DNA of 64,000 bases from Pseudidiomarina homiensis (GTDB lineage: Bacteria; Pseudomonadota; Gammaproteobacteria; Enterobacterales; Alteromonadaceae): positions 1,178,001 through 1,242,000 of the forward strand of contig NZ_PIPX01000001.1 of NCBI RefSeq assembly GCF_003987225.1, given 5' to 3'. Below the pieces are notes generated by a model. It did not search any database. It was not told the origin of the DNA and worked only from the letters and a program-made list of their open reading frames with translations. Position numbers and translations under genes: made by a program. Positions 27,037 to 52,492 of this stretch are shown here, piece by piece. How positions within the stretch are numbered: the stretch's first letter is position 1; the number at the start of each line of letters is the position of its first letter.

Positions 27037-27123
27037 GCGTTGCTTCTCCATTAGCGATGCGAATTGTCAAAATCGACACCTATTGTAGTTGTTGTCTATA
27101 AAACAAGCAAATCCATGTCATTG

Positions 27124-30519: not shown

Positions 30520-30689
30520 ATTCCTTGTTTTTTGTCATACAGCGCAACAGCTTTCAAAAGCCTGCGGTACGAAATGCGCCGGTGTCCTCATTCCTTTTAC
30601 CGCGCTTTCTAAATTACCCTAGGAATATGATTTGTAAAGAATTATCGTACTTTTTATGTCGCAAATGTCACACAACCTCGTATGAGTAC

Positions 30690-34798: not shown

Positions 34799-36722
34799 AT
34801 CGAGTAGGAGGAGGCCTTACGGCCTCCGTCCTCTCACACCACCGGGCATACGGTTCCGTACCACGGCGGTTCATAAGTTATATTTGAGCTGATGGTAACT
34901 GTCCATCAACGATACCAATCCCAGTCTATCAAACAACTTCTTCGGTACTGCCTGATTCATGTGCGACGTACCTGCATTCCACCATGGACCACGCCCATTG
35001 GTGGTACTTAGCATTGCACGTTTCTCATTAATACCGAGGCGCATCAACATCCGCTTTCGGGTTCGACCTCGTTTCCATTGTCGCCATAGGATCTTTCTTA
35101 AATGGCGACGAAGCCAGCCATCAAGTTCATTGAAGACTCCTTTCACATCTGCGTGATGGAAGTAATTTATCCAGCCACGTAGTTTAGGGGTCAGTTCGTT
35201 CACCGTTTTACGGATGCTCCAGCCTCTGGCCATTCGCAGTAGAGCCTTAATGTTGTCTTTAAAGCGTTTCACGCTTTTATCGGCAACCCGTAGCCGGATA
35301 TTATATCTCCGGTTGCACACCGTGTAACCAAGGAAGCAGCGCTTCCATGGTCGGTCGGCGGCACTCTTGTCGCGGTTGACCTTGAGCTTCAGGTGCTGTT
35401 CCAGGAACTTAGTCGTCGAGGCAAGCACTCTGTGCGCGGCGCGTTCACTGCCTACATAGATGTTGCAGTCGTCTGCGTAGCGACAGAAGCTATGACCTCG
35501 TTTCGTCAGCTCCATGTCCAGTTCGTGGAGTAGGACATTCGATAGCAAGGGTGAGAGCGGCCCGCCTTGCGGCGTGCCTTCTGTTCGTGCTGTCACGATT
35601 CCGTTTTCCATGATACCTGCTTGTAGGTAGCGGCGTATCAGTTTAAGCACGGTTCTGTCTTTAATAACACGGGCAATGCGCGACATTAAGAGGTCGTGAT
35701 TCACCCGGTCAAAGAACTTTGCCATATCAATGTCCACCACCCAGCGTTTACCCGACTCCATATAATCCCGGGCTTGATGCACCGCTTGCGCGGCGCTCTT
35801 GCTTGGTCGGAACCCGTAGCTGTGTGGTGAGAACATCGGCTCGAACTGGTCGCTCAGTACCTGATGCATTGCCTGCTGGATAAGGCGGTCTATCACACAC
35901 GGGATGCCCAGCATCCGTATGCCTCCACCGGGCTTGGGTATCTCGACCTTACGCACCGGTTGCGGTTGATAGCTGCCTTCCAGCAGTTGTTGTTTGATAG
36001 GCTGCCAGTGGGTTTGCAGATAGCTTTTCAGCTCATCTGTTGTCATTCCATCTACCCCCGGTGCGCCTTTATTTCGGCATACCCGTTGGTAAGCTTGCAG
36101 CATATTTGACCGGTTGGTTATCGCTGATATTAGCTCCATATCAGCCCCGCTCGGAGAGGTTCTGATTGATGCCGCGATGTACTGCACAACCTGACTGTCC
36201 AACGTAGACTTCTGGTCTCGCGGTTTGGGTCAGGTGAGCCTATCGCTCTTGCTGTGGTATGTAACATCATCGAATCAACAGGCTCCGATTCATAACCTAT
36301 GTTCAGCCCTTCAGTTGACGGTGACCAACCTACTACGGCCTCGGCTGACTTCTGCTGTTCCATCCTGATACCTCACAGCATCAGTAGCCTAAGGCAGAGC
36401 AACAGATCTCCCAGGGTAATGCGCGTGACCGTCCCACTTATACCTGCCGCATCTACGTTCACAGTTTCCGTGTAAGTATTGGGCTTTAATAGTATTGGCT
36501 ACCTTACCCACTATAGACGCCTCGTATGCGGTTTCTGTTCGTCAGGTCAGTGTTTTGCTTGCCGCTTCCTTCAGATTTTACCTCGCGGTAGACACCCTTG
36601 CGGTTCAGCTAGTGATTCCCCTTACCGGGCTCACAGAGGACTTTCACCTCCAAGTCTTCCTGTCAGCACCACCTGTACAGGAACAGCGCTCATCAAGGCG
36701 CTACGCGCCGTGCCTGGCGCAC
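34799..36722 (-). mobile_element. Group II intron, probably class IIC
   Basis: On the minus strand the element starts with GTGCGCCAGGCACGG at 36722, the standard GUGYG intron start, followed by GTGAAAGTCCTCTGTGAGCCC-type domain I sequence near 36640. It ends at about 34799 with domains V and VI: an ACCGCCG...CGGTGGT hairpin with tip TACGGAACCGTA (about 34840-34872) and then the GGAGGCC-GTAA-GGCCTCC stem and CTACTCGAT. The catalytic triad appears to be CGC, as in class IIC. The 5' end abuts the T-run of a terminator, the typical IIC target. Bases 36203-36722 carry intron RNA and no gene. Confidence 0.88.
34871..36202 (-). CDS. ltrA: Group II intron reverse transcriptase/maturase
   Basis: The 443-residue protein has RT domains in order: RNKGAPGVDGMTTDELKSYL, VEIPKPGGGIRMLGIP, FDRVNHDLLMSRI, GTPQGGPLSPLLSNVLLHEL, and the catalytic FCRYADDCNIYV. 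The maturase X domain follows (LTPKLRGWINYFHHADVKGV) and the protein ends without an H-N-H endonuclease, as in class C introns. It binds the intron RNA, aids splicing and primes reverse transcription. All catalytic residues are intact, so the element may be active. Confidence 0.95.
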   Translation of the reverse strand: MDSQVVQYIAASIRTSPSGADMELISAITNRSNMLQAYQRVCRNKGAPGVDGMTTDELKSYLQTHWQPIKQQLLEGSYQPQPVRKVEIPKPGGGIRMLGIPCVIDRLIQQAMHQVLSDQFEPMFSPHSYGFRPSKSAAQAVHQARDYMESGKRWVVDIDMAKFFDRVNHDLLMSRIARVIKDRTVLKLIRRYLQAGIMENGIVTARTEGTPQGGPLSPLLSNVLLHELDMELTKRGHSFCRYADDCNIYVGSERAAHRVLASTTKFLEQHLKLKVNRDKSAADRPWKRCFLGYTVCNRRYNIRLRVADKSVKRFKDNIKALLRMARGWSIRKTVNELTPKLRGWINYFHHADVKGVFNELDGWLRRHLRKILWRQWKRGRTRKRMLMRLGINEKRAMLSTTNGRGPWWNAGTSHMNQAVPKKLFDRLGLVSLMDSYHQLKYNL

Positions 36723-38653: not shown

Positions 38654-40702
38654 TTAGTCGTTAAGCTCAATCGTTGTCAAGCCATCTGCTATTGTTTGTC
38701 GAATTTCTGCCCACTGATCAGTTGAGTCAATAATTCGTGGTGTAATAAAGATGACTAACTCGGTTTTCTCGCTGTTCCCATCCTTGCCTTCGAACAGATT
38801 ACCCAATAAAGGAATATCTGACAACCCTGGTACTGAGCTGTTGCCATTTTGTTTGCTTTCTGAGATCAAACCACCCAATAAAATAGTCTGTCCGCTTTGC
38901 GCAATCACCTCGGTCTGAATGGCTCGCTCGAAGATACTCGGACTACCCGCAACTGATGGCCCGCCAGCCGACGTATTCGAAATGGTTTGGTCAATCTGTA
39001 ACACTACCAACCCTTGCGCATTAATTGTTGGGGTGACGTTAAGTTGCACACCGGTCTTCCGATACACCACATTCTGTGTCTGACTTTCAAAGTTTGGGTT
39101 TGTCGTCGTCGAACCAATGGTTGGGATATCATTCCCCACATTAATCGACGCTGATACGCCGTCACGTACAACGATGGTCGGATTCGATATGACGTTAATG
39201 AGACTTGAGCTTTCTTGGAGGCGCGCGCGCACTGATGACACGCCGTCGCTCCAGTTCACAAAAAAGCCACCCATATCACCAACACCAAGGGCGCCTAAGG
39301 TTCCGCCAGTGATCTGGCCGGAACGAAACGCAAACTCGAAGCCCTGCGAAAATTCATCGGTAAGTGTCACTTCGGCAATGGTCGCATCAAGCACCACTTG
39401 CTTCGGCATCACGTCCAAACGCTTAATAATAGGTAGTAACGCTTTGTAGTCGGTACCCGTCGAATTAAAAATAATGGCGTTAGAGCGCTCATCTACAGTC
39501 ATTCGCAGGTTTTCATTCTCAGCTACGATGGCGCCGCCCGAGCGAGCACCAGTGTTGCCCGCGTTGCTGCCGCGTTGCGGTTGCGCTGAACGCGTATCGC
39601 GACTGGTATCTCCGCCAAAGCCACCACCGCCAATGAGTGCAGAAATTGACTCACCCAAGTCACTGGCTCGCGCGTAGCGCGGGTGGTATACATAATACCC
39701 TTTTTTGGTGCCTTGACTCGGTTGATCAATCTTCTTCGTCCAGAACTGCGCGCGCTCAAGGACTTCTTCATCTGCAGCAAACAACGCTACCGCACCAAGC
39801 TGCATGACTGGGACCGCTAGGATGGCAACACCACTGGTTGGGTTGTCGCCCACACTAATCCCTTCGGCGCCCATTAAGCTTTCAAGTTGATCAATATAAT
39901 CAGTTGGGCTAATAAAGGTAAGTTCAACCAATGCGATGTAACGTCCACGTGTTGCGGGAACATCTAATAGCTGGATTAAATCGAGTAAACGCAAAATCTC
40001 CTGACGCTGGCCTTCAGCAAAAAAGGCATTCTGGCTGAGTTCTGCGGTAATGCGTACATCGGTAAGCCCGCGAATGGTTCGTTCTAGGCTCGGTTTAAGC
40101 CCATATTTTAACGGGATCACTTGCAAAATGCGTTGCGCGGTGTCGGGTACGTCTTGAAAACGCCGTCCTAAACCAATCACCACATTACTTCGTTGTTTGG
40201 CATCTACTGGGTACACGTAAAAGGTTTTGTCACGCAGCGAAACGTCAAGCCCTTTGTCGTTCATTAACTGCCGCGCTAAGCGAAACAGTTCGCGCGAACT
40301 GACCGCATCACTCAGGTTTAACGTCACGGTTTGTCGCAGCTCATCCTGCGTCGCAATCACATAGTTCACGGACAATGCTTTGCCAAAAATGGTTTCAATA
40401 AAGGCACGCATTGGCAGTGCGTTGGCGCTTACTTGCTGCGAGTCGCTGTCGCTAAATTGCATTGCAGGGTCAGTATCGCTGCGTAACTTAGCAGCATCAG
40501 CTTGCAAACTGTTAATCCGAGAAAAGCCACCCTCTCGCACCGATTCGTCGCTTTCTTGCAGCACGCTATCATTTACCACTTCAGCATTTTCGACTTCCAT
40601 ACGATCCGGATTGATTGGAATACGGTCGGTTGTTTGCGCGCAGCCCCATAGACTTAGCGCAGCAAGAAGTGTGAGTGCGGTTTTTGCCTCGATTACCTTC
40701 AT
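38654..40702 (-). CDS. GspD-like secretin of the second type II system
   Basis: The ATG at 40702 gives a 682-residue lipoprotein precursor (lipobox LSLWGC). Periplasmic N-domains precede a Gly/Ser-rich linker (GGGGFGGDTSRDTRSAQPQR) and the secretin core: VVLDATIAEVTL, VISNPTIVVRDG, SINVGNDIPTIGS, GVQLNVTPTINAQG and the terminal GQTILLGGLISESKQ / VPGLSDIPLLGNLF blocks. It forms the outer-membrane pore. The short frame extension upstream to 40780 overlaps the previous gene and lacks lipoprotein character. It resembles MshL in general style, but its neighbours are T2SS components rather than MSHA genes. Confidence 0.9.
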   Translation of the reverse strand: MKVIEAKTALTLLAALSLWGCAQTTDRIPINPDRMEVENAEVVNDSVLQESDESVREGGFSRINSLQADAAKLRSDTDPAMQFSDSDSQQVSANALPMRAFIETIFGKALSVNYVIATQDELRQTVTLNLSDAVSSRELFRLARQLMNDKGLDVSLRDKTFYVYPVDAKQRSNVVIGLGRRFQDVPDTAQRILQVIPLKYGLKPSLERTIRGLTDVRITAELSQNAFFAEGQRQEILRLLDLIQLLDVPATRGRYIALVELTFISPTDYIDQLESLMGAEGISVGDNPTSGVAILAVPVMQLGAVALFAADEEVLERAQFWTKKIDQPSQGTKKGYYVYHPRYARASDLGESISALIGGGGFGGDTSRDTRSAQPQRGSNAGNTGARSGGAIVAENENLRMTVDERSNAIIFNSTGTDYKALLPIIKRLDVMPKQVVLDATIAEVTLTDEFSQGFEFAFRSGQITGGTLGALGVGDMGGFFVNWSDGVSSVRARLQESSSLINVISNPTIVVRDGVSASINVGNDIPTIGSTTTNPNFESQTQNVVYRKTGVQLNVTPTINAQGLVVLQIDQTISNTSAGGPSVAGSPSIFERAIQTEVIAQSGQTILLGGLISESKQNGNSSVPGLSDIPLLGNLFEGKDGNSEKTELVIFITPRIIDSTDQWAEIRQTIADGLTTIELND

Positions 40703-40709
40703 AATTCTG

Positions 40710-41249
40710 CTATTCCTCTGCGTTGTGCTGGTCATCGAAAATCGGTACGACGATCGTCTCGTCAGCACGCTGGAACACAATCTCGTTCACGCGGACCGCG
40801 CTCACGTTGTACTCCCCTAAAGCTTCACCAACCGTGCGTTCGATAAGCTCGACGCTGCGGTCATCATTATTTTGTGCTTCCATAATAGCGACTTTCTGGG
40901 CGTTTTCTGTCGAAATAAGAATCGCTCTAAGTCTTATGCGTAGCGGCCCTACATCCACTCCACCAGGTAATAATGCTTGCTCAGCATCATCTTTGTCGCT
41001 GCTTGACGCTTGTTCAATCTGCTTGCGCACTTGTTCACGCTCGGCAAACCACGTTTGTAGCTCATCAAGGACTCGCGGTGTCGCCACTTGAATCTGTCCT
41101 GCGGATGCTAAATCTCGAGCGATTGAATCATTGTCGGCGCTTGCGATCCAGACCCGTTGACTAAAATCGAACAAGCAAAGTAAAGTCAGTGCGCCAGCCA
41201 CACCTAAAGCGCGTTTGTCGATGTTTTGCAGACGCGAGGTCAAATTCAT
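40710..41249 (-). CDS. GspC/PilP-like inner-membrane protein with HR domain
   Basis: The 179-residue protein has a membrane helix at about residues 16-34 (ALGVAGALTLLCLFDFSQRVW), a periplasmic coiled linker, and a C-terminal small beta domain (LRIRLRAILISTENAQKVAI then VNEIVFQRADETIVVPI) that resembles the HR domain by which GspC or PilP docks to the secretin. It immediately precedes the secretin gene. There is no PDZ domain, as in short GspC forms. Assignment rests on topology, the beta pattern and position. Confidence 0.65.
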   Translation of the reverse strand: MNLTSRLQNIDKRALGVAGALTLLCLFDFSQRVWIASADNDSIARDLASAGQIQVATPRVLDELQTWFAEREQVRKQIEQASSSDKDDAEQALLPGGVDVGPLRIRLRAILISTENAQKVAIMEAQNNDDRSVELIERTVGEALGEYNVSAVRVNEIVFQRADETIVVPIFDDQHNAEE

Positions 41250-41815
41250 GAGCCCTCCTGGCTAGGCCTGCGCGTCGCAATCTCGAGCAGCAGCTCAATT
41301 TGCATCTGCGGGTCGCTCGATCTACCGCCGCGACGATTATTGCTCTTCCGTAAGCTAAAGTCGACATAGCGAATGGACGGCAATTGCTGCGTCATTACTA
41401 AGTGAGCCTCAGCCAATTGCGAAACAGCTCCACTTAAACGAATTTTTGCGCGTTGCACTTGCACCGTATCGGATACAGCTTGGCTCTCGGTTAGCCAATT
41501 AAATTCTTCTAGGCGTAATGAATGCTCACGCGCAACCCGTTGTATCTCACTTTGCAAGTCAATACGAAAAACAGTGCGGTCTGTTGCTACCGGAATAGCC
41601 TCGAGCAATTGCGCTTCGTTCGATTTAACTTGTTCGGCTAATTCCGCAACCTTTTGTTGGTTTTCTAATAACTGCTCACTGCGGCTTAATCGCTGTTCAA
41701 GCAAGCGCAGTTCTGTGTGCTCTTGGTCCTGATACTCCATCAGCGGCACAATCATAAACTGTATCGCTGCTAATACTCCCGCAATCAACAGAAGATTTTG
41801 CTGTGACTTAGTCAT
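41246..41815 (-). CDS. GspM/PilO-like inner-membrane assembly protein
   Basis: The ATG at 41815 overlaps the upstream stop by eight bases and has GAGGA eight bases before it. The 189 residues show one N-terminal membrane helix (LLLIAGVLAAIQFMIVPLM), a coiled coil (ELRLLEQRLSRSEQLLENQQ) and a ferredoxin-like periplasmic end. This is the PilO/GspM plan; such proteins link the cytoplasmic ATPase platform to the periplasm. The sequence is too divergent for a closer name. Confidence 0.65.
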   Translation of the reverse strand: MTKSQQNLLLIAGVLAAIQFMIVPLMEYQDQEHTELRLLEQRLSRSEQLLENQQKVAELAEQVKSNEAQLLEAIPVATDRTVFRIDLQSEIQRVAREHSLRLEEFNWLTESQAVSDTVQVQRAKIRLSGAVSQLAEAHLVMTQQLPSIRYVDFSLRKSNNRRGGRSSDPQMQIELLLEIATRRPSQEGS

Positions 41816-42932
41816 CAGTGGCGTCCTCTGCTGCAAGCTGCTGTGCTAGCTCGAATTTAATGATGAAGCGTTGCTGATTGCCGCTGGCTCGCACGGGAGA
41901 GTCAAAATCTGCATTAACCACCGCTGGCGAAGCACTCAATTGCTGTATAAACGGCAAAGCACCATCGGCAACAGCGCTGAGCATCAGGCTCTTAAAGTCA
42001 CCGCGCAGAAAGTTTAAATCAACGTTTTGTTCTTCAATCACTCGGTAGGTGCGCCATAAGTTGTTCACGGCTTGCCAATTGGCTTGGTGTTGTTGCAATG
42101 TTTCGATCGTTGCTTGGGCGTTCTGCATTGCTGACTGCTGTTCTAACACAACACTCACGTCGTCTTGCATAGCGGTCAGTTGGGACTCTAGCCACCAACG
42201 CTGCGCCATCAAATAACCACTGGAGAGCACCGCATAGAGCACAACGACTGCGCCACACGCCACCAACGTTTGCTGCCAAGGAAAGCTTTTTGTTTGCCCG
42301 GAGCCTTGCCAACCCTGTTGCCAAATTGCTACACCAAGCTTACGCACGCCACGAATAAGCAGCGCTTGCAGTTGCGCCTCGCTGACCTGTTGTACCGCTT
42401 CGCTATGACCCGCACCTAGAGCAAGTTTAGCGGTTGTCGCATCACGCAACAGCGCTGACTTGCGCGCGGTCTGCCATTCTTTGCCTTGTTTATGCAAAAA
42501 ATAAGCTGCTTTAGCACTGCTAACCTCATAAAAGCCGTCGTTTAACGCCGCGGCAACAACAAGAGTCTCGGGTAACACCACGTAACCGTGCTCAGCAAGC
42601 TTTTGCCCTTCTGCCGTGAGTTCAACAGTCAGCACTCGACGCTGCCCGTCTTGCTCATGCCCGATAAAATGCAAAACACCTGGGGCCGAATTTTGTAACG
42701 TTAGAATCTTTCGTAATTCGCGCTGCGATCGAATCGCAAAACTTTGCCACTTTTCTTGATAAAAAGTACGCGCCAAAACGACGACGGGAACACGTTTTTT
42801 AGGGACCGTGACAGCCTTAGCCTGAGAACCTTGATACCATTGCCCATCCGCGTTGACACGCCAAAGGCCACGCTCTAGTTGACTTGCTAGGCGCTTGAAC
42901 AGACTCGTTTGCTTAGGCTTGGCTTCACTCAT
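41808..42932 (-). CDS. GspL-like protein of the second type II system
   Basis: The 374-residue protein has a cytoplasmic N-terminal part of about 225 residues, one membrane helix (TLVACGAVVVLYAVLSSGYLM), then a coiled coil and a small periplasmic domain, the order found in GspL. In GspL the cytoplasmic part recruits the GspE ATPase. The start overlaps the upstream gene (ATGA). No actin-fold signature is obvious by eye; assignment is from topology and gene order between K-like and M-like genes. Confidence 0.62.
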   Translation of the reverse strand: MSEAKPKQTSLFKRLASQLERGLWRVNADGQWYQGSQAKAVTVPKKRVPVVVLARTFYQEKWQSFAIRSQRELRKILTLQNSAPGVLHFIGHEQDGQRRVLTVELTAEGQKLAEHGYVVLPETLVVAAALNDGFYEVSSAKAAYFLHKQGKEWQTARKSALLRDATTAKLALGAGHSEAVQQVSEAQLQALLIRGVRKLGVAIWQQGWQGSGQTKSFPWQQTLVACGAVVVLYAVLSSGYLMAQRWWLESQLTAMQDDVSVVLEQQSAMQNAQATIETLQQHQANWQAVNNLWRTYRVIEEQNVDLNFLRGDFKSLMLSAVADGALPFIQQLSASPAVVNADFDSPVRASGNQQRFIIKFELAQQLAAEDATDD

Positions 42933-43800
42933 TCGGTATGCTTTTTTCTTCTCGTAGATAGCGCTTGTATTCTATCGTCCTTGGATGTTTATCATGCGTG
43001 GCGTAAATCACACCGCGCCGAAGTTGTTCCCCAGTTACCGGGTCAGTCACTGTTACACGCTGTTCGTCGCTCGGATACAAAGATACGCCAAAGCCTGTGT
43101 CTTGCCCTGAAAATTCTTCGTAAAGACGCGGGTTATACTCTCCCGAGCCGCGCAACGCTGTGATAGTATCAGCTTGCCCAGAGGTGAGCAAGACAGGGAG
43201 TAAGCCATCTGGCGCCCAAGCGCCGTTAAATGGCATGATCTTGGTGGTCACATAAGGGCGGATTCGTTCAATAATTGCGGACGTCCATCCGGGCACACTG
43301 GTAAGTTCATTAATGTGCTGAAAGTACAATCTATCGTCACGGTACAACTGCTCACGCAAGGTCAAGATCATATTATTGGCCTCAATCGAGGGCACGCCGG
43401 CGCGCACAAGCACATCGCGTAGCTGATCGTTGGCCTGATTGACCCCAACCAAGCTTCCAATGTTTTGCATCTGCACATCAATACCTTCAGCTAAACTTTT
43501 ATACGCTTGTCGGTTGGGTAACTGCACGCGCATCACGTAATTATGAAAGTTCAAACCAGCGATGGGTTTACCTTCGCGCAACATATCGCTCCAATCGTTG
43601 GTCAGCATTAACATATCGAGGTAATTCGCTGCGGAGTGCAAAGCTAACTGCTTTTCGGTTTGCTTTTGCAACGCCAAGGCACGGTCTACCTGGCCTTTGG
43701 TGGTGTTGGACATAATCAGCAACAACACTGAAATGATGGCGACAATAAGTAACACTTGAAAGAGTGCCATGCCCTGCTGCTGTTGGCGCAATTTAGACAT
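42925..43800 (-). CDS. GspK-like minor pseudopilin
   Basis: From ATG 43800 (GGAGG upstream) the 291-residue protein has a prepilin-type start: SKLRQQQQG-MALFQVLLIV, with methionine at +1 as in GspK, then a hydrophobic helix. A large globular domain follows with LRDVLVRAGVPSIEANNMIL and NELTSVPGW, the helix-hairpin-helix-like K region. GspK caps the pseudopilus tip. The glutamate at +5 that other pilins have is absent, as expected for GspK. Confidence 0.8.
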   Translation of the reverse strand: MSKLRQQQQGMALFQVLLIVAIISVLLLIMSNTTKGQVDRALALQKQTEKQLALHSAANYLDMLMLTNDWSDMLREGKPIAGLNFHNYVMRVQLPNRQAYKSLAEGIDVQMQNIGSLVGVNQANDQLRDVLVRAGVPSIEANNMILTLREQLYRDDRLYFQHINELTSVPGWTSAIIERIRPYVTTKIMPFNGAWAPDGLLPVLLTSGQADTITALRGSGEYNPRLYEEFSGQDTGFGVSLYPSDEQRVTVTDPVTGEQLRRGVIYATHDKHPRTIEYKRYLREEKSIPNE

Positions 43801-44482
43801 CGGAAGAATACCCTCCCAATATGTCGATCGCATTATCAGATACTGTGATTAACCAACTCATACCATTTAAATTGATCCGTATGGCAATAGGGTGGACCAC
43901 TCGAGCCAAACCGTCATATTCGTTAAACCAGCGCGGCTCTAATACTTCACGGTTTTCTGCGGAAATCACGTCGCGGCGTTCATCGTAGTTGTTCCAGCCA
44001 AAATAGCTAAAGTCGAGTTCCGCGATGTTGTCATAAATCACTCGCCGGAAGTTAAACGGTAGATTTTGCTCTGGCTCTTCAAGACGAAAGCCTTTTAACG
44101 GCGCTTCTTCATAAATTAAGCGCCATGTACCGTCTTGGTTTTGCTCTTTGAACAATCGGTAGACCGCAGGCACTGTCGGATCTTGCACACTAGCTGACGA
44201 GACGGCGGTAAAACCTTCTTCACGACCAAGGAAGTAAAAGCCCAAATGGCCTGCTTGGCGGTTCTTATGCACCACCTTGGCAAAGGTGCTTTGCGTCACC
44301 CGCTGCACCAGCGTGGTCAAATGATGTCGCTGCATGGCGTCGTTCATGCTGCCTTTGTTGCGTTGCCAGTTTTGGGTGAAGTAGTCATAGGCGAGCGCAC
44401 CGCCGAGCATCAGCAGTGACAACAGCACCATGGCGATCAGGGTTTCAACTAAGGTGAAGGCGCGCTGAGTCTTTCGTCCCAT
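43793..44482 (-). CDS. GspJ-like minor pseudopilin
   Basis: The 229-residue protein starts MGRKTQRA-FTLVETLIAMV and continues into the pilin helix and a beta-rich domain. Glutamate +5 is present; the residue before the cleavage site is alanine rather than glycine, which prepilin peptidases tolerate less well. The region around RRVIYDNIAELDFSYFGWN matches GspJ in style. Its start overlaps the previous gene and its stop the next, so the minor pseudopilins are co-translated. Confidence 0.78.
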   Translation of the reverse strand: MGRKTQRAFTLVETLIAMVLLSLLMLGGALAYDYFTQNWQRNKGSMNDAMQRHHLTTLVQRVTQSTFAKVVHKNRQAGHLGFYFLGREEGFTAVSSASVQDPTVPAVYRLFKEQNQDGTWRLIYEEAPLKGFRLEEPEQNLPFNFRRVIYDNIAELDFSYFGWNNYDERRDVISAENREVLEPRWFNEYDGLARVVHPIAIRINLNGMSWLITVSDNAIDILGGYSSDV

Positions 44483-44880
44483 ACTAGCTCCTCGTAGTTG
44501 AATTCGCGGCGGCTGGTGCCAAACTCCATGGTCAGGGTTACGGCGTACAAGCGATAACGCGGGCCGTACTCACGAAAGTCGAGTTCGGCGTCGCTAAAGT
44601 ATTTTGCCGGTGCTTCGTAGGCCACTTGCTCGGCCTTCCAGGTCGCACGTACGCCTTGGCTAAACAGTTCTTGTTGGCGGCGGTCGGTGTGTTGCAAGTC
44701 AAATTCGATGGCACTGCGGAGCACTTCAACCTGAGTCAGTATGTGCGTTACTTCGGCGGCTTTGGCTGAGTTGCGCATATTATTTTGAAACGCCAGCATT
44801 GCGGTGACCACCGACGCGGTGAGTATGGTCATGGCAATCAACACTTCAATCAGGGTAAAGCCAGCACTAGCGCGACGCAT
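44449..44880 (-). CDS. GspI-like minor pseudopilin
   Basis: Starting at ATG 44880 with GGAGG six bases upstream, this 143-residue protein has the leader MRRASAG and then FTLIEVLIAMTILTASVV, a classic class-N prepilin sequence with Glu+5. The small C-terminal domain is beta-rich (YRLYAVTLTMEFGTSRREFN). It overlaps both neighbours. GspI nucleates the tip complex with J and K. Confidence 0.8.
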   Translation of the reverse strand: MRRASAGFTLIEVLIAMTILTASVVTAMLAFQNNMRNSAKAAEVTHILTQVEVLRSAIEFDLQHTDRRQQELFSQGVRATWKAEQVAYEAPAKYFSDAELDFREYGPRYRLYAVTLTMEFGTSRREFNYEELVWDERLSAPSP

Positions 44881-45406
44881 CACTTGCCTCCTGCGTGTCT
44901 TGCTCGATGCGTGGCATATTCAACGCAACACTGCGCTCATTTGATGCTTCAAACCAGTAAAAGAAATCATTTGACCAAAAACCATGACTATTTAACTCAA
45001 TTGATTGGTTTTTGAATTCAATTGAATTGAAATGAGCAATAATTGTGTCATTTGATGCTTTTTGGATAGAAATGCCATCATTTGATTGATTATTTTGCTC
45101 ATATTCATCAATTGATGTGTTTTTGGACTCAATTGATTGCATAAATAAATCATTTGATATTTCTGAGCCCGTTTTTACAATCATTTGATTGTTTTTAGTC
45201 ATCAAATGAATGTTTTTGAACTCGGTGTAGGCTTGAAATTGCAGATCATTGAGCAGGCGTAGCAACTGCTCCCGCTCTTGGGTGACTTTGCTGCGTTCGT
45301 ATTGTTGCAAGGCGACAGGGCCAACGAGGCTGGCGGCGATGCCAATAATGCTTAACACCACCAGCAATTCGATAAGCGTAAAACCTAGGCGGCGTCGGCG
45401 GATCAT
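44867..45406 (-). CDS. GspH-like pseudopilin with an AT-rich repeat-bearing core
   Basis: The leader MIRRRRLG precedes FTLIELLVVLSIIGIAASLV, so this is a prepilin; LLRLLNDLQFQAYTEF fits GspH/FimT. The middle (about residues 60-155) is unusual: it is very rich in Asn, Ser, Ile and Asp with nine S-N-D/E or S-I-D/E triplets, encoded by repeats of TCAWWTGA in AT-rich DNA quite unlike the flanks. The end (FYWFEASNERSVALNMPRIE) again looks ordinary. The 179 residues are in range for the family. The DNA signal is treated as a separate feature. Confidence 0.75.
   Translation of the reverse strand: MIRRRRLGFTLIELLVVLSIIGIAASLVGPVALQQYERSKVTQEREQLLRLLNDLQFQAYTEFKNIHLMTKNNQMIVKTGSEISNDLFMQSIESKNTSIDEYEQNNQSNDGISIQKASNDTIIAHFNSIEFKNQSIELNSHGFWSNDFFYWFEASNERSVALNMPRIEQDTQEASDASR
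44937..45217. repeat. Intragenic array of 11 TCAWWTGA octamers with phased T5 tracts
   Basis: Octamers begin at 44937, 44967, 44997, 45018, 45048, 45078, 45108, 45129, 45150, 45181 and 45202; intervals are 30, 30, 21, 30, 30, 30, 21, 21, 31 and 21, that is, two or three helical turns. Six T5 tracts begin at 45009, 45059, 45120, 45172, 45192 and 45213; five of them start 11-12 bases after an octamer start. The octamers at 45181 and 45202 are not in the codon register of the other nine, so the pattern is kept at DNA level. Confidence 0.9.
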
Positions 45407-46602
45407 ATTGGCATGTCTGTGACGGCAGATATGCTCAGCATCATAATGACCACCACACTGCCTACCACAGCTCCCATGAAAAGAATCAATGCTGGTTCGA
45501 GTAAACTGGTGAAACGCGTCACCCAGTTGTAAAAGGTGCGGCGCGAACGGTCGGCAATCTCGCCAAATACGCGCGCGAGTTCGCCGCTTTCTTCACCGAT
45601 TTTCAGTAGCGCCGCATAATATTGCGGGTACAGGCGTGTCTCACTGAGTGACTCTGCAAGGCTATTACCGCGGTTGATTTGCTCAGCAGCGCGGGCAACT
45701 TCTTGTTGCAGGCTCACCGTGCGCAAGGTTTTCTGCGCCAGTTTGATGCTACGGTCAATGGCCACACCGGACGACAGCATGACATTTAGCGCGGCATTAA
45801 AACGAATACGCTCGACCAGCAAGTTAGCGCCCGACACCACGGGCATGCGCTCACGCAACCACGAACGAAATTGCGCGACGGTCGGATGCGTCCGCCAACG
45901 CCACAGCACCAGCCCGCCGCCAGCGATAGCTGCCACCAGCCATAGCTGATACTGAATAAAGAAGTCACTCACTGCCAACAATGCCACGGTGTAACCCGGC
46001 AGACCTTGCTGGTCTTGGAACAAGGTGGTTAAGTTTGGCACCACGAAATTGAAGATAAACACAATGGCGGCAATACACACGGTCAAAATAACCGCTGGAT
46101 AAACCAAGGCTTGTTTGATTTTGTCACTCAGGTCGAGCTGGTATTTCAGTTCGTCAGATAGGCGCTCAAAGGTCGCGGCCAGCTCACCGGTTTCTTCCGC
46201 GATTTGCACCAAGCCGACATACAGTGAGCTAAACACGGCATATGGCTGCAACGACGAAGATAACTTCTCACCTTGTTTGAGCTTTTGCAGTACGTCGCGC
46301 AAAAACTGGCGAAGCGCTGGTTTTTCAACGTTTTGCAGCAGAATTTCGAGGCCTTTGTCGACTTTAAGGCCCGACTTCAGCAACAGCGCCAGTTCTGAGG
46401 TAAAAAATTCAACGTCTTTTAAGTTCAGTTGCCGATCACCAAACAACGCTGCGCCGATGTCTTTTTGTTGCGGCTTTAAGCTCGACACCAGCAATTGCTG
46501 GGCGCTGAGTTTGGCTTTGGCGGCGGCTTCATCGACCGCTTCGACGGTGCCTTGTTGCTGCACCCCGCTCGCGTTGTAGGCGGTGTACTTGAACTGTGCC
46601 AT
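45403..46602 (-). CDS. GspF-like inner-membrane platform protein
   Basis: The 399-residue protein has the GspF/PilC layout: AQFKYTAYNASGVQQQGTVE at the start, two repeated cytoplasmic domains each followed by membrane helices, with FTSELALLLKSGLKVDKGLE, and the repeats EETGELAATFERLSDEL and EESGELARVFGEIADRS. Three long hydrophobic segments are seen. It connects the ATPase to the pseudopilus. It overlaps the E-like stop and the H-like start. Confidence 0.92.
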   Translation of the reverse strand: MAQFKYTAYNASGVQQQGTVEAVDEAAAKAKLSAQQLLVSSLKPQQKDIGAALFGDRQLNLKDVEFFTSELALLLKSGLKVDKGLEILLQNVEKPALRQFLRDVLQKLKQGEKLSSSLQPYAVFSSLYVGLVQIAEETGELAATFERLSDELKYQLDLSDKIKQALVYPAVILTVCIAAIVFIFNFVVPNLTTLFQDQQGLPGYTVALLAVSDFFIQYQLWLVAAIAGGGLVLWRWRTHPTVAQFRSWLRERMPVVSGANLLVERIRFNAALNVMLSSGVAIDRSIKLAQKTLRTVSLQQEVARAAEQINRGNSLAESLSETRLYPQYYAALLKIGEESGELARVFGEIADRSRRTFYNWVTRFTSLLEPALILFMGAVVGSVVVIMMLSISAVTDMPI

Positions 46603-48293
46603 TAGCCTGCCACCCGCACCACTTCGGCTAAGGTTGTTTCGCCGCGCATGGCTTTCAATACGCCGTCTTCAAGCAAGTTGCGGAAGCCCCGCTCGCGGTT
46701 CATACGCCGCGCTTTGGTCAAGAACTCCGCGTCGCCGAGTAAGGCTGTGAGCTCTTCGTCACAACGCATGTATTCAATCAGTGCCACGCGGCCTGAGTAG
46801 CCGGTGTGTGCGCATTTGTCGCAGCCTACGGCGCGATGAAAATCGGGTTGCACGCCAAAGCGTTCTTGCATCCACTGCATTTTCATTTGCCGATACTGTT
46901 GCTCGCCTTCGGCGTCCGGCGCTTTACAATGTGGGCACAGTTTACGTGCCAAGCGCTGACCAACAATCACTTTAATCGCTGCGGCCAGCAGGAATTCTTC
47001 AACGCCAAGGTCTAGTAAACGAGTGTAGGCGCTGGCGGCGTCATTGGTGTGCAAAGTACTAAAGACCAAGTGGCCGGTCAGCGCCGATTGCAGTGCAATA
47101 CCTGCGGTTTCAGCATCACGGATCTCACCGACCATGATAATGTCGGGGTCTTGTCGCACCACCGAACGCAAAGCATTGGCGAAGGTAAAGCCAATGTCAC
47201 TTTGCACCTGTACCTGGTTAATGCCGTCCAGTTGATACTCCACCGGATCTTCAATGGTGATGATTTTCACGTCCGGCGCATTGCGGCGTGATAAAAACGA
47301 GTACAAGCTCGTGGTTTTACCAGAGCCGGTTGGGCCGGTCAGCAAGATCACGCCTGACGTGGCTTGAATATCTTTCAATAACTCGGCTTCGACGTCGTGC
47401 TCGATACCGAGTGTTTTCACGTCGTAAGCAAGGCTATCTTGCAGCAAGAAACGCATGACCACGGACTCGCCTTCGCCCACTGGCAAGGCCGACACCCGCA
47501 CGTCCACGTTCAAGCCGTCGATGCGCAATTCGATTTTACCGTCTTGCGGCCGCCGCTTTTCGGCAATGTCCATATTCGACAGCAACTTCAAGCGCGTGAC
47601 GACTGGCAACACCATGTGCATGGGAATAAAATCGGCCTCATGCAACACACCATCGATGCGGTAACGCACGCGGCCTTTGCCCTTCCACGGCTCAATGTGC
47701 ATATCTGATGCACGGCGACGCAGCGCCTTGGCCATCAAGTTGTTCAATAGGTTTACCGTTGGTGCTTCTGAGGCAAGTTCGCGCAGGCGGTCTTCTTCAA
47801 GCACACTCAAGTCCGCGCTGTCACTGCGCTCATTGGTGCTTTGTTGGTAGCGATTGAGCAGTTGGTTGTACTGCTCGTCGGTGGCAATCACCAATTGCAG
47901 TTCAGGCGCTTGGTGCACCGCAGCAAATTCAAGCAGTTCTGGTTTGGTCGGATTCACCACCGCAACGCGAATGGCAGCTTCCGAGACGGCAATCGGCAGG
48001 CAGTCGTGCGACATTAGCTGTCGCAGCAAGCTCTCGGGAAGTGCTTCTTGTAGCGCTTGCCACTGTTCATCGTCGTCGAGTAATGGCTCCAATTGCGCGC
48101 TGTCGAGCTGCGGTAGTTCGTAGACTTCTGCGTAATAGGCTGGTAAGTACTCCGAACTTAACGCCCCCATGCGCACCAAGATCTGTTCCAGTTGGCCGCC
48201 ATTACGCGACTGGAACTGTAGCGCTTTGCTTAAATCGTCGTGATTCACGCGAAAGCGCTCGGTAAATAGTTGATGCACAGTTGTCTCGGTCAT
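46602..48293 (-). CDS. GspE-like secretion ATPase of the second type II system
   Basis: This 563-residue traffic ATPase has N-terminal GspE/MshE-type domains, then the core: Walker A GPTGSGKTTSLYSFL, the Asp box ITIEDPVEYQLDGI, Walker B DPDIIMVGEIRDAETA and the His box TGHLVFSTLHTNDAASA. A zinc-binding module is present (LCPHC ... CDKCAHTGYSGR), as in GspE. It powers pseudopilus growth. It differs clearly from the housekeeping GspE at 61024. Confidence 0.95.
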   Translation of the reverse strand: MTETTVHQLFTERFRVNHDDLSKALQFQSRNGGQLEQILVRMGALSSEYLPAYYAEVYELPQLDSAQLEPLLDDDEQWQALQEALPESLLRQLMSHDCLPIAVSEAAIRVAVVNPTKPELLEFAAVHQAPELQLVIATDEQYNQLLNRYQQSTNERSDSADLSVLEEDRLRELASEAPTVNLLNNLMAKALRRRASDMHIEPWKGKGRVRYRIDGVLHEADFIPMHMVLPVVTRLKLLSNMDIAEKRRPQDGKIELRIDGLNVDVRVSALPVGEGESVVMRFLLQDSLAYDVKTLGIEHDVEAELLKDIQATSGVILLTGPTGSGKTTSLYSFLSRRNAPDVKIITIEDPVEYQLDGINQVQVQSDIGFTFANALRSVVRQDPDIIMVGEIRDAETAGIALQSALTGHLVFSTLHTNDAASAYTRLLDLGVEEFLLAAAIKVIVGQRLARKLCPHCKAPDAEGEQQYRQMKMQWMQERFGVQPDFHRAVGCDKCAHTGYSGRVALIEYMRCDEELTALLGDAEFLTKARRMNRERGFRNLLEDGVLKAMRGETTLAEVVRVAG

Positions 48294-48685
48294 TTCAGAA
48301 TAATGTCGGCGTTCGTGTCTTCGCCGCCTTCACTGCCATCGGCACCCAATGACATAAGGGTAAACGGCTTGCCGTTATCACCTGGCATTTTGTACACGTA
48401 GTCGTTGCCCCACGGATCCGGCGGTACTTCTTTTGGAAAGTACGGGCCTTGCCAGTTAGCTTCGTCGCTCGCCAGCAATTGATCAAGCTTCTCTGGATAA
48501 CGCCCCATATCTAAACGATAAGTATTGAGCGAGGTTTCCAGCATTTTCATCTGGGTCTCAGCGGTTTTGATCTTCGACGAATCGACTTTCGAGAACATTT
48601 GCGGCGCAACTAAACTGGCCAGCAAGCCTAAAATCACGATAACGATCAACAGTTCGATCAAGGTGAAGCCGCGTTCACTTCTCAT
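48290..48685 (-). CDS. GspG-like major pseudopilin
   Basis: The 131-residue protein has leader MRSERG before FTLIELLIVIVILGLLASLV. It carries the GspG features LDMGRYPEKLDQLL, PPDPWGNDYVYKMPG and a C-terminal acidic loop (GADGSEGGEDTNADI) like the calcium site that stabilises GspG. It forms the body of the pseudopilus. It starts 12 bases after the yjbH stop and overlaps the E-like start, tying the yjb genes and this secretion system into one unit. Confidence 0.93.
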   Translation of the reverse strand: MRSERGFTLIELLIVIVILGLLASLVAPQMFSKVDSSKIKTAETQMKMLETSLNTYRLDMGRYPEKLDQLLASDEANWQGPYFPKEVPPDPWGNDYVYKMPGDNGKPFTLMSLGADGSEGGEDTNADIILK

Positions 48686-48697: not shown

Positions 48698-50839
48698 TTA
48701 TTCTTTATAGAAAGGACTACGCTCGTCGGTGGAGTAGAACAGCTGAATTTGACGATTCAACATTTGACCACCATCGCGGGTGAGCGGCGTCCAACTGATC
48801 ATGCCGCGGTTCGGGCTATGCTCAGTCTGTAACAAGTCGACAGGTATACTAATATAAAAGCCTTTGGTAAAGCTACCTTCGCCGTACTCTCGCGACGATA
48901 AATTGGTTTTGGCGGCATAGGCCCCCACTACGACACCGCTGCGGAATTTATGTTCCACATTCATTTGTACGCCGTTGTCCTGCGCCAAGAAGCGCCCTGC
49001 GGCAACTTTGAACAAAGTATTTGGCATAAACTCTGGCATGTAGTAACCGGTCACATGGCCGGTAAAGGTGTCGTAATCTAAGAAGCCGGTATGGCTATTG
49101 TAGTCACGTTGTTTCACCCAGTTTAAGTCAACGCCAACGGCCCAGTTGCTGTCGAGTTCGCGATACAACAACTCAGTACCTACACCACCGAACATGCGCT
49201 CGAGGTAACCGGCGTAATAGCTGGTGTATACATTCGGCGCTAATTGATTAATGTGGCTCAGCTGGAGGTTTTCCATCCAGATGTCACTGAAGGTCGCGTA
49301 TTCGCGCACGTAGGTTCGTACCCGTGGCACTTTTGAATTGTACTGATCGACTAAGAAGTTAAAGTCGTCAAAGTTGGTCATCAAGTTGCCACTAAGGGTA
49401 CCGTGCAAGAACGTTCCCGGTGCTACCCACATCGCTGCATTCACGTCGAGACCAAACTGATACATATAGAAGTTTTCTGGGTTACCAAAACTTTGCTCAA
49501 GGAACGGCTTCACACTGAGCGTTGGCCAAGTGATTTCGTTTTTGGCGATAAAGAACGGTTGGTCTTCGTAGGTTTCTAACGGCGTGTCTTTGCGCGTGAA
49601 GGCATCATCGATGGTGGTGGTGAAGTCTTGACGCTGGATCGCAGTACGCGCAGTGGCGATGTCGATTTCGGTGGTGTGGGTTTGGATTAAACCGCGGCGG
49701 TTCACCACGTCAATTTTTTCAACCCATTCCGGCATACGCTGTTCGGCAACTTTGGCGATGCGACGCAGTCCTTCTGCTTGCTCACGGAAACGTAATTGTT
49801 CACCGTAGACGCGTATGGTATCGATGTCATCAGAGTCTTCACTACGCGCAAGTTGCATACGCGTCGGCTCAACCCCGCCGTAAAAGCGGAGATCATTTGC
49901 GAACGCTAATACGCTGCGCCGGTTGGTGACATCGTTAATCCGCGGCAACGAGTTGCGCTTATTCGGTTCTGGCACTTCGCCACGTTTCGACTTCACTTGG
50001 CCGATTTCATTTAAGTCAAAGCTGGTCGAGAAGCCGAACATCCAGTTTTCGCCACGCTCGTAGCTGATTTTGAGCGTGAAGTGGTCGCCTAAGGCGTAAT
50101 CGGCACCAAAGTTCCATGCGGAATCGGGCTGTAAGTCACCTAGGTAACGTTCGCGACTGTAATCATTACCGTCGTACTCGGCTTTCAATACGAGTGGATC
50201 GAATGGCGTTTGATAGGTCAGACCGCCGAATACGGAAGTGCGTCCGCGGAACCATTTATCGACTTCAAAACGGCCGCCGTAACCGCTGTAGCCGCTTTCG
50301 CGACGGCAAAAAGCATCATCAATTTCGCAAAACGGATTGTCTATGTTATCGCGGTTACCCATGTAGCCCCAACCAAGGCCAACGGTGAAATCGAGTGGCC
50401 CAAATTGTTTGCTGGCGACAATGTATTCACTAGCGAAGATGCCGGTGCCCGCTAAGTCACGCCAGCCAACCGCAACTTGCGGCAGCCAGTAGCTTTCTTT
50501 CAATAAGCGGATTTTGGCGTCAAAACCTTTGTCTTTGCCGGTTTGATCGCCACTAAAATTAGGATCGGCGCTGTAACGAATCGGGCGAATGTCGTTGTAG
50601 CGCACGGTGGTTTCTAACCATGGGAACAACTGCAAGCTTAGCGCAATTCTGCGGTATTCTTCGTTGTCGTAATACAGTCCCGAAAGTGTGCCATAGTCGG
50701 CAAACCGCGCTGTCGGCATTTGCATTAAACCGACACCACCAAAGTCTGATTGGTTTGCGGTGTCGGCTGCTGAATCTGGAGAATAAGAGAGCGCGGCGGT
50801 GACTGCGAGAGCCACCAAACTTCGGGAAACAACGGTCAT
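48698..50839 (-). CDS. yjbH: YjbH/GfcD-like outer-membrane beta-barrel
   Basis: The 713-residue product has a signal peptide (SLVALAVTAALSYSPDSA) and YjbH blocks: GVGLMQMPTARFADYGTLS, then ETTVRYNDIRPIRYS, GIFASEYIVASKQFGPLDFT. The long C-terminal part has alternating strands of an outer-membrane barrel. YjbEFGH (GfcABCD) act in exopolysaccharide or group 4 capsule secretion in enteric bacteria. The ATG at 50839 overlaps the yjbG stop (ATGA). Two predicted barrel regions suggest a very large pore. Confidence 0.88.
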   Translation of the reverse strand: MTVVSRSLVALAVTAALSYSPDSAADTANQSDFGGVGLMQMPTARFADYGTLSGLYYDNEEYRRIALSLQLFPWLETTVRYNDIRPIRYSADPNFSGDQTGKDKGFDAKIRLLKESYWLPQVAVGWRDLAGTGIFASEYIVASKQFGPLDFTVGLGWGYMGNRDNIDNPFCEIDDAFCRRESGYSGYGGRFEVDKWFRGRTSVFGGLTYQTPFDPLVLKAEYDGNDYSRERYLGDLQPDSAWNFGADYALGDHFTLKISYERGENWMFGFSTSFDLNEIGQVKSKRGEVPEPNKRNSLPRINDVTNRRSVLAFANDLRFYGGVEPTRMQLARSEDSDDIDTIRVYGEQLRFREQAEGLRRIAKVAEQRMPEWVEKIDVVNRRGLIQTHTTEIDIATARTAIQRQDFTTTIDDAFTRKDTPLETYEDQPFFIAKNEITWPTLSVKPFLEQSFGNPENFYMYQFGLDVNAAMWVAPGTFLHGTLSGNLMTNFDDFNFLVDQYNSKVPRVRTYVREYATFSDIWMENLQLSHINQLAPNVYTSYYAGYLERMFGGVGTELLYRELDSNWAVGVDLNWVKQRDYNSHTGFLDYDTFTGHVTGYYMPEFMPNTLFKVAAGRFLAQDNGVQMNVEHKFRSGVVVGAYAAKTNLSSREYGEGSFTKGFYISIPVDLLQTEHSPNRGMISWTPLTRDGGQMLNRQIQLFYSTDERSPFYKE

Positions 50840-51723
50840 GATTGAGGGTTCCAATAACGTGCGAGTTCTACAAGTTGTTGACCTAATGACTGCCATTGCT
50901 CTGGTAAGTCAGTCTTCGGCAGGTCAACCAAAATGAGGCCACCGACCGGCGGCATTGCTTTATCGTTTTCATAGTAAGCCACATTTGACGACTCCGTATG
51001 TCCCGTTAAGAACACTAGGTCGACACTGGTTAGCCCATGATGATTATTGAGAATACCACTACGCTCAAGTACGTCGCGCACGGAATCTTCTTCAGTAAAA
51101 GTTACTTTTTGCGCACCGTCGGCGGTCACTAAGGTTGCGTACCATTGGTTTGGCACTTCACGTGGTGGTAAAAAGCGATACGTGCCTTCTGGCAAGGTTG
51201 GGTTGTACTTTAAGCTGCTTACGGCATCGGTGAAACTACTAAAAAAGCTTGGACGCTCAAAACTGGTTCCCGATTGTTCGTCTTTACGATCAACGATCTT
51301 TGCGAAGCCCAACCATTCGGCACCGATCAGTGGCCACGTGCTAATTGCGGCATGCCATTTTTGTAATTTCGCTGCAGCGGCTTTGTTACCTTCGGTTTGC
51401 GTCCACTGCGCAAGCCCGTCGAGCTGCTTTAATAGCGCCTGACGTTGCTGATGGACTTTACGTGTTTGTTTCTGGCTGAGCAGCCGGCTCACCGGCCAGT
51501 ATGCAGCGGGTTCCAACTCTGCAGCACGATAGATCTGCATAAGATTAGGTAAGCGCGTGAAACTGTACATTTGTTGGTCGATATTGACCTTCACCACGCG
51601 ATCAAAAGGCGTCGCACCGTCTGGTTGCTTGGCTTCGGCCATTGCTGTCGTTGGTACAATCGCTAAACAAGTTACTGCCGTGAGTAAACCCCAAATTAGC
51701 TGAGAAAAAGGCCCGCATCGCAT
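50836..51723 (-). CDS. yjbG: YjbG/GfcC-family capsule biosynthesis protein
   Basis: After a signal peptide (TAVTCLAIVPTTAMAEA) the 295-residue periplasmic protein has RVVKVNIDQQMYSFTRLPNL, PAAYWPVSRLL, a helical middle, and DLVFLTGHTESSNVAYYEND near the end, which match the GfcC family, whose domains resemble the periplasmic parts of Wza. It starts one base after the yjbF stop. It should act with YjbF and YjbH in polymer export. Confidence 0.85.
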   Translation of the reverse strand: MRCGPFSQLIWGLLTAVTCLAIVPTTAMAEAKQPDGATPFDRVVKVNIDQQMYSFTRLPNLMQIYRAAELEPAAYWPVSRLLSQKQTRKVHQQRQALLKQLDGLAQWTQTEGNKAAAAKLQKWHAAISTWPLIGAEWLGFAKIVDRKDEQSGTSFERPSFFSSFTDAVSSLKYNPTLPEGTYRFLPPREVPNQWYATLVTADGAQKVTFTEEDSVRDVLERSGILNNHHGLTSVDLVFLTGHTESSNVAYYENDKAMPPVGGLILVDLPKTDLPEQWQSLGQQLVELARYWNPQS

Positions 51724-52407
51724 TTACAAATCTCCATTGAACGGTTTAATTTCCTGTAAAATACCATAGCCTAAATCTTTAGAGAGATAATGTTTTGCAA
51801 AGACAACGCGTCCATTCACTGCATAAAATTCGTTACTGAAGTTTTCTCCAGCAAAAACACCACGTTCGACAATTTTGGTGGCTTGTAGTTCAGTTCCGTC
51901 AGGGTGGCGATAGGTTTGTTGCGCTGCCACTTCGAAGGTAGATGATACTTTGATTTGGCGCAACACGTTGCTGCCATAATTACCCAATTCTACGGTGCGC
52001 TGCCAACTGTTATGACAATTGCTTTCGGTGTGTTGTGCTGCAGTCTGACGCACCCAACAGCTCAGCGGATCTGATGCCCAATCACTGGTATACAGCGGCA
52101 CGCCTGGCATATTCGAGCTGCTGATCACACGGCCAAAGCGCGTGACAAAGGCTTCTTCACCGCCAGTGCGGTAAACCCGCTGTAACTCGGTTGCGCGATC
52201 GAGTACCGCTACAATACGCCCTGACGTTTCGGTGTCAAAGTAAGCCGCTGCATATGGCAAATCGGCGATTTCAGCTTCCGTTAAAACAACATCGTCATTG
52301 CCGAACAACGCTTCTTCAGCAGCGCCAGCAAGATTTTGCATACGCACACTGCAGCCTGAAAGTGCGAAAACGAAAACAACAAGACTAGCAAAACCGATCA
52401 AACGCAT
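51724..52407 (-). CDS. yjbF: YjbF/GfcB-family outer-membrane lipoprotein
   Basis: From ATG 52407 (AAGG upstream) the product starts MRLIGFASLVVFVFALSGC, a lipoprotein signal with lipobox ALSGC. The mature part has DLPYAAAYFDTETSGRIVAV, TGGEEAFVTRFGRVI, and ERGVFAGENFSNEFYAVNGR, typical of YjbF. The frame is open 54 bases upstream but those codons spell no lipoprotein start and overlap the terminator. About 227 residues, normal. Confidence 0.88.
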   Translation of the reverse strand: MRLIGFASLVVFVFALSGCSVRMQNLAGAAEEALFGNDDVVLTEAEIADLPYAAAYFDTETSGRIVAVLDRATELQRVYRTGGEEAFVTRFGRVISSSNMPGVPLYTSDWASDPLSCWVRQTAAQHTESNCHNSWQRTVELGNYGSNVLRQIKVSSTFEVAAQQTYRHPDGTELQATKIVERGVFAGENFSNEFYAVNGRVVFAKHYLSKDLGYGILQEIKPFNGDL

Positions 52408-52458
52408 GAAAGTAAACCTTATTGACGGAAAAAGACGATAACGGAAATAAAAAACGCT

Positions 52459-52492
52459 CAAAAAAATACCGCAGTGCGCACCTGCGGTATTT
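52459..52492 (-). terminator. Terminator/attenuator between yjbE and yjbF
   Basis: An 11-bp perfect stem, AAATACCGCAG and CTGCGGTATTT, with a seven-base loop (52464-52492) is followed on the minus strand by a T-run. It follows the yjbE stop by 33 bases and precedes the yjbF ATG by 52 bases. Partial read-through would give much more YjbE than YjbFGH and the downstream secretion genes. Confidence 0.85.

Follow-up and report, generated by a model that had tools for sequence, protein, structure and literature searches.

A phased array of TCAWWTGA sites inside a gspH-like gene of Pseudidiomarina homiensis, probably an intragenic operator array of a domesticated phage-type switch

Lambda CI/Cro is a divergent repressor switch of the phage type, and sites lying between divergent helix-turn-helix genes are the usual arrangement for autoregulation. 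TP901-1 CI/MOR and phi11 are switches of the same type. The C-terminal domain of the 186 CI repressor is reported to form a wheel-like 14-mer and the protein to loop DNA in vitro (PMC8053113); 186 CI is also reported to be a poor roadblock, and looping to make lambda CI and LacI better roadblocks (PMC10310618). The genus Pseudidiomarina harbors a regulator pair that resembles these switches, with two divergent helix-turn-helix genes and a multi-site palindromic operator region between them, here recognized from sequence. Unlike the phage-type switches, however, the pair forms a single-copy chromosomal locus in most genomes, and similar sites also occur at distant genes and inside open reading frames, in arrays of up to 23. 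The CI-like protein belongs to the same helix-turn-helix family as 186 CI (PF07022), but only its N-terminal domain is recognized; its C-terminal half has no Pfam match, and a profile of the protein reaches 2fjr weakly (E 0.043, residues 12-69 only). The second protein is comparable to Ner/Nlp-type regulators through an HTH_35 match (PF13693) in the copy of the genome studied here, and this copy has no homologue in the phage collection at E 1e-3. Neither the pair nor the octamer site was the subject of any paper among the literature matches listed.

The window analyzed is a 64-kb stretch (64,000 nucleotides) of P. homiensis DNA, in which eleven TCAWWTGA octamers start at positions 44937, 44967, 44997, 45018, 45048, 45078, 45108, 45129, 45150, 45181 and 45202, with successive intervals of 30, 30, 21, 30, 30, 30, 21, 21, 31 and 21 bp. 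This recount bears out the earlier note on this DNA, which had reported eleven octamers spaced 21, 30 or 31 bases in an AT-rich segment, two of them outside the codon register of the others, together with six T5 tracts. Nine octamers lie in frame 0 and the two starting at 45181 and 45202 in another frame; the G + C content is 28% in the array versus 54% in the rest of the gspH-like gene; and five of the T5 tracts start 11-12 bases, and one 22 bases, after an octamer start. The remainder of the window contains five further copies of the word, and the 16 copies were reached by none of 100 dinucleotide shuffles of the window. Shuffles of the array only yielded a mean of 0.38 octamers and a maximum of 4 (n = 5000).

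The octamers had been proposed to face one side of the helix. This is borne out for a helical repeat of 10.18 bp (R 0.92) but not for one of 10.5 bp (R 0.22); random codon-locked spacings of 18-33 bp phased equally well in 0.01% of 20,000 trials at the best of five periods and in 67% of 20,000 trials at 10.5 bp. The curvature that had been claimed for the segment fared less well, as AA/TT phasing (a rough proxy for curvature) ranks in the top 0.8% of window tiles but is not above that of synonymous shuffles (P 0.10, n = 500), which makes the argument weak, and curvature was set aside. Genome-wide, the octamer shows no clear excess (139 copies versus 129 for the reversed word), and a DNA uptake sequence was rejected on this ground. 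The whole genome contains four octamer pairs at 21-bp spacing, every one of them inside the array. A dispersed, tandem or decayed tandem repeat was also rejected, because the genome is otherwise devoid of 21-bp pairs and the spacers are nearly unrelated while the octamers are identical; spacer identity is 0.33 versus 0.29 after shuffling, a small difference (P 0.005). Three other candidates were set aside. Comparison by eye with the IHF consensus found its 3' part mostly missing, hairpins between octamers are an expected consequence of a palindromic word, and an internal promoter is disfavored since the only promoter-like site in the array is on the plus strand, opposite to gspH (3 such sites in 44700-45500, where 1.6 were expected).

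Table 1. Features of the array and of the surrounding gene run (window coordinates)
Feature	Position	Strand	Basis or remark
yjbF/gfcB-like lipoprotein gene, first of the run	51724..52461	-	PF11102, E 7e-19
gfcC-like gene	50836..51723	-	PF20616, E 7e-7; PF06251, E 9e-5
yjbH/gfcD-like exopolysaccharide gene	48698..50896	-	PF06082, E 3e-229
gspG	48290-48685	-	upstream of gspH
gspE	46602-48293	-	upstream of gspH
gspF	45403-46602	-	upstream of gspH
gspH-like pseudopilin ORF, 179 aa, holding the array	44867..45406	-	PF07963, E 2.9e-8
Array of 11 TCAWWTGA sites	44937..45209		word count and spacing
Two octamers off the codon register of the other nine	45181..45209		frame count
Six T5 tracts (45009, 45059, 45120, 45172, 45192, 45213)	45009..45217	+	A5 on the coding strand
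In-frame 102-bp segment with four octamers	45063..45164	-	alignment of 10 gspH genes
Remainder of the run, downstream of gspH: gspI, J, K, L, two small genes, secretin	38654..44883	-	
gspD-like secretin	38654-40780	-	PF00263, E 2e-44

The gspH-like gene is the seventh of a same-strand run for polysaccharide export and secretion, in the order yjbF-gfcC-yjbH-gspG-E-F-H-I-J-K-L-two small genes-secretin, with all genes encoded on the minus strand and with overlaps or very short gaps between them (Table 1); the run would form one operon. The presence of yjbF, gfcC and yjbH is shared with the group 4 capsule and YjbEFGH exopolysaccharide operons, whereas the junction with a gsp set and the intragenic site array are not. 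We take gspI, J, L, M and C to be such from gene order, the two small genes presumably occupying the gspM/gspC position, and gspK has a Pfam match only below the cut-off. The assignment of gspH itself is suggested by its position and N-terminal methylation motif; the best NCBIfam match to a GspH family model (TIGR01708, 39.9 bits) is under the cut-off of 80, and the predicted structure is uninformative (mean pLDDT 43.6 from a 3-row alignment). The order yjbF-gfcC-yjbH-gspG is common to the window, the sister strain CB1, P. halophila (G003) and genome G008, as read in the latter three from likeness to the window products. What we take to be a second gsp gene set is located at approximately 53.8-64 kb of the window. 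Several additional features were noted in the window. A unit containing a CCCGTGGTTCTACCACGGG-like palindrome is repeated in tandem at 26238-26340, 27123-27291, 30686-30795, 57914-58127 and 58568-58763, the copies at 57.9-58.8 kb lying within what look like N-terminal extensions of two pseudopilin-like ORFs in the second gsp set, and the ORF at 34871-36202 presumably resembles a group II intron reverse transcriptase/maturase. In a comparison of 43793-44482 with CB1 by eye, the 3' part of gspJ looks far more diverged than either gspF or gspI, and such a mosaic would suggest recombination.

The array is not explained by the encoded peptide alone. When the peptide and codon counts were held constant, synonymous permutation gave a mean of 6.5 octamers, and eleven were reached in 0.015% of 20,000 permutations (P 1.5e-4). 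A second run reached eleven in 0.04% of 5000, with the same result if the best NNNWWNNN word was taken, which lessens the problem of the choice of word; the best exact 8-mer alone gave P 0.025. AT-rich back-translation of the peptide produced a mean of 1.5 octamers and a maximum of 7 (n = 20,000). In the CB1 gspH (ORF of 145 aa), the octamer excess over synonymous permutation was likewise significant (P 1.4e-3), and the seven array octamers present are all kept exactly. Between the window gene and CB1, none of 56 octamer bases differ, compared with 15 of 115 spacer bases (Fisher P 0.003), and at third positions 0/16 are changed in octamers against 9/41 in spacers (P 0.05). In the rest of gspH, 5/197 bases differ in the 5' part and 8/70 in the 3' part, the latter being as diverged as the spacers. 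On these comparisons, the octamers are unusually constant and the spacers are not unusually fast. A protein repeat as the only cause was rejected on the permutations together with the constancy of the octamers in CB1.

The inference from gspH draws on three species. Relatives that kept the peptide with different codons would, as the earlier note reasoned, point to selection on the protein, and neither CB1, with its seven exact octamers, nor P. halophila displays this pattern. In P. halophila, one of the octamers encodes S-F-D in place of S-I-E, so that the residues changed with TCAWWTGA intact, though the octamer is kept at only three of the seven shared places, the other four no longer match, and the three alone are not significant (P 0.20). 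Four octamers of the window gene are carried by a 102-bp segment that is flanked by direct TCAAATGA repeats, with ends uncertain owing to repeats and coordinates derived by hand from the alignment. It is present in the window species only: CB1 and P. halophila gspH lack it, and at this place the other seven aligned genes contain unrelated sequence or none. No TCAWWTGA was found in the gspH of these seven relatives (G002, G004, G005, G006, G008, G012 and G016), all of which carry both regulator genes; thus, the array is lineage-specific. In five of them (G002, G004, G006, G012 and G016), GGGCwGCCC palindromes lie in that gspH loop instead; these REP-like palindromes were considered as a counterpart of the array and rejected as a separate repeat unrelated to the octamer. 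A palindromic repeat TTATCCAnAnRGGGCnGCCC lies in frame in the gspH loop of G004, G006, G016 and G002 and also elsewhere, in coding and intergenic DNA, at low copy in 7/26 genomes; its ends, to our eye, presumably resemble DnaA boxes.

The octamer is also found beside the regulator pair. A CI-like gene (PF07022) was detected in 24 of 26 Pseudidiomarina genomes, with one match each, and a Ner-like gene (PF13693) in 23, adjoining the CI-like gene on the opposite strand in all 23. Identity to the copies of the window genome, which possesses both genes, ranges from 60 to 98% for Ner and from 31 to 99% for CI. In that genome the CI-like protein matches PF07022 at E 1.2e-5 (26.0 versus a cut-off of 22) and the Ner-like protein is just over the PF13693 cut-off (26.0 versus 25), while the pair of G023 gave E 1.1e-6 and E 1.1e-7, respectively. 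The G023 Ner-like protein falls in a PHROG transcriptional repressor family (5e-14), and the pair there is flanked by GreA, YhbY and FtsJ-type genes. The Ner-like matches in G001 and G010 each contain one stop codon, that of G001 falling, as read, at the end of the reading frame.

A 30-bp-spaced pair of sites sits between the CI-like gene and the divergent Ner-like gene in G001, G010, G011, G017, G019 and G023, and at least two exact TCAnnTGA, as read, lie upstream in 18/24 CI-like loci, at 19-21, 30/31 or 51 bp. The alignment of 23 of the 24 intergenic regions (that of G007, where no site was recognized, was left out) displays TCAAATGA, 20/21 bp, GTCAnnnGAC, 30 bp and GTCAAATGACA, with several copies degenerate and with an A-tract, akin to the T5/A5 tracts of the array, before the last site. 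In the window genome, where the arrangement spans C1:944319-944387, two exact copies of TCATTTGA (C1:944323 and 944374) lie 51 bp apart and enclose a third site with one mismatch. As judged from these alignments, TCAnnTGA at approximately 20/21 and 30 bp marks the region between the two divergent genes. The last site (O1) is followed by C in 23/23 regions and preceded by G in 18/23, and since the outer site (O3) lacks these flanking bases, they were not taken as defining the operators. In sister genera, three loci checked in one genus (g52; L181-L183) had no exact site upstream of the CI relative, and in another (g35) G059 has a 21-bp-spaced pair at this position and G107 a single site.

To relate the array to these sites, a model (R1) built from the intergenic regions only, containing no window sequence and giving rough E-values, was run against the 64-kb window. 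Seven of the nine matches with E<1, including the five best, fell in the array (E 3.8e-5, 2.8e-4, 0.017, 0.049 and 0.057, all rough), and none lay near the yjbF start. In the search at genome scale, the best array match reached only E 0.025 and the others were weaker. In a control with an HMM from the same alignment, dinucleotide shuffles never matched the real array (0/300); synonymous shuffles reached its best score in 25% of 300 and its summed score in none, and shuffles of the spacers around fixed octamers did so in 33% and 18% of 300, respectively. On these controls, the likeness consists of the core word and the spacing, and the flanks add nothing: no likeness in flanking bases or A-tracts was detected beyond the octamers, and the resemblance of the spacers to the operators was not significant. 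A preceding G and a following C each occur in 1/11 array sites on either strand, and since these O1 flanks are rare, the array sites resemble O3 more. The likeness of the array sites to the operators of the pair is, in our judgment, very likely meaningful.

The same arrangement recurs elsewhere in the genus. TCAWWTGA pairs at 30-bp spacing occur in 12/24 Pseudidiomarina genomes (three of them in gspH) versus 0/24 for the reversed word, and in 2/16 genomes outside the genus. TCAnnTGA pairs occur in 19/26 genomes versus 1/26 for the reversed control, although five of the 19 share one match in apparently conserved unrelated sequence and a few single cases may be due to chance. Beyond the intergenic regions, R1 identified 14 loci at E<=0.01 by our own grouping, of which 12 were examined, and polysaccharide genes were present at 8/12 as a raw count. 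In G011, G017 and G019, sites lie where a yjbF/gfcC-like gene meets yjbH (Pfam was run on G011 and the others were assigned by likeness), and those within ORFs read SND as in gspH. In G008, the sites are at the 5' end of a second yjbH and extend YjbH at its N terminus, in a frame reading CQMT/CQLT/SHLN. Other sites are located between UDP-sugar dehydrogenase and epimerase genes in both G005 and G016 (identified with Pfam for G005), downstream of UDP-GlcNAc 2-epimerase in G012, between a galE-like gene and one taken as capD-like from its similarity to a G017 gene in G019, upstream of a function-unassigned ORF in G005, and at the start of a methyltransferase gene in G013 and G015. The G013 array comprises 23 TCAnnTGA in 656 bp, mostly at 30/31 spacing (L145 1403-2058; G013:C14:77902-78557); it is not occupied by any evident gene, although roughly half of it falls in a mechanically called 145-aa ORF and its end is overlapped by the methyltransferase ORF, the G015 relative of which (L231) also has a site. 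On these gene assignments, the run around the P. homiensis array belongs to the class in which sibling species have the site elsewhere. A phage-like element of G005, with an integrase arm domain, a GPA replication gene and an ORF that we take to be excisionase-like, contains a three-site TCAWWTGA module between the integrase and GPA genes (L147 1473-1530; G005:C2:161991), as if the element were wired to the host regulator.

Taken together, the permutations, the constancy in CB1 and the recurrence at other loci support the earlier proposal of a binding array acting at the DNA level. That proposal named no protein and knew no family with such a site; the site does exist between the regulator genes, which narrows the candidates to the CI-like/Ner-like pair. 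The reading that we consider probable, by a fair margin over even chances, is that a domesticated phage-type switch controls the operon through the gspH segment, which would serve as an intragenic operator array. Each TCAWWTGA, nearly palindromic, would be equivalent in kind to the sites lying between the two regulator genes, at the same 21- and 30-bp spacings, and the two-fold TCA-nn-TGA would be recognized by a helix-turn-helix dimer. One or both regulators would bind the sites side by side and cooperatively on one helical face, as spacings of two and three turns at approximately 10.2 bp would place neighbors for cooperative contacts or wrapping. The resulting multi-site nucleoprotein block in mid-operon, acting as a roadblock or by silencing, would lower the downstream secretion genes when the switch represses, and selection on the sites may have shaped the encoded peptide. 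The binding protein, its cooperativity, the sign of regulation and bistability are what we infer here, as is the effect on expression, be it by roadblock, silencing, looping or titration. By analogy, the poor performance of 186 CI as a roadblock counts against the roadblock version. A protein that blocks only weakly would require numerous sites or loops, a need that would account for an array, and a 14-mer wheel with looping would suit evenly phased sites.

The main rival is titration, in which the array would set the switching threshold of the CI-like/Ner-like pair by soaking up regulator, and the location of the array in gspH would matter little. The eleven exact sites, compared with two in the genome's own operator region, the 23 sites in G013 and the variation of multi-site places between species all agree with such a sponge. 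Yet a sponge has no need for polysaccharide genes, which accompany most of the examined non-operator loci and to which class the gspH run itself belongs, and we regard titration as improbable. Slightly less probable still is that the array serves a different DNA-binding protein, nucleoid-organizing or centromere-like, that also uses the sites between the regulator genes. The pair is assigned to the sites by position only, the bases next to the array sites are unlike those around the last operator site, and a 10.2-bp phase over approximately 270 bp suits wrapped or bridged DNA; against this, such intergenic sites are usually autoregulatory, the genome-wide excess expected of organizing sites is absent, and no replication or partition genes were noticed by eye among the ORFs at 36-64 kb. 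The centromere-like or nucleoid-organizing role suggested earlier found no support.

A protein-level repeat, with S-[NI]-[DE] selected every 7 or 10 residues in the pseudopilin of an AT-rich gene, would account for nine of the eleven octamers sharing one frame, for nine of the ten spacings being multiples of 3 and for the location of some sites at conserved backbone positions, but it is made very unlikely by the synonymous tests, the two out-of-frame octamers, the reappearance of both word and spacing between the regulator genes, and the different frame used in the G008 yjbH. Neutral, functionless expansion of a short repeat through slippage or recombination, compatible with the 102-bp segment between direct repeats in one species, the mosaic gspJ and the slight likeness among spacers, is just as hard to credit given the identical octamers among nearly unrelated spacers and the recurrence at other loci with similar spacings.

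A broader form of the operator-array hypothesis, which we offer only as a speculation with the odds against it, is that one domesticated phage-type switch governs surface polysaccharide and secretion throughout the genus by means of arrays inside its target ORFs, in genes and frames that differ between lineages. Regulators bound to each array would wrap or align the DNA into a nucleosome-like silencing block with a period of approximately 10.2 bp, the switch would make the surface vary from cell to cell, and the operators would write new peptides into pseudopilins and exporters. In either form, the hypothesis would join a conserved regulator pair to surface polysaccharide and secretion genes, and would offer an example, from more than one lineage, of protein sequence apparently shaped by DNA-binding sites. 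Several questions thereby become accessible to experiment: the evolution of operators within coding DNA, the ability of numerous mid-operon sites to block transcription, and the possible role of a one-time phage switch in making the cell surfaces of these bacteria variable.
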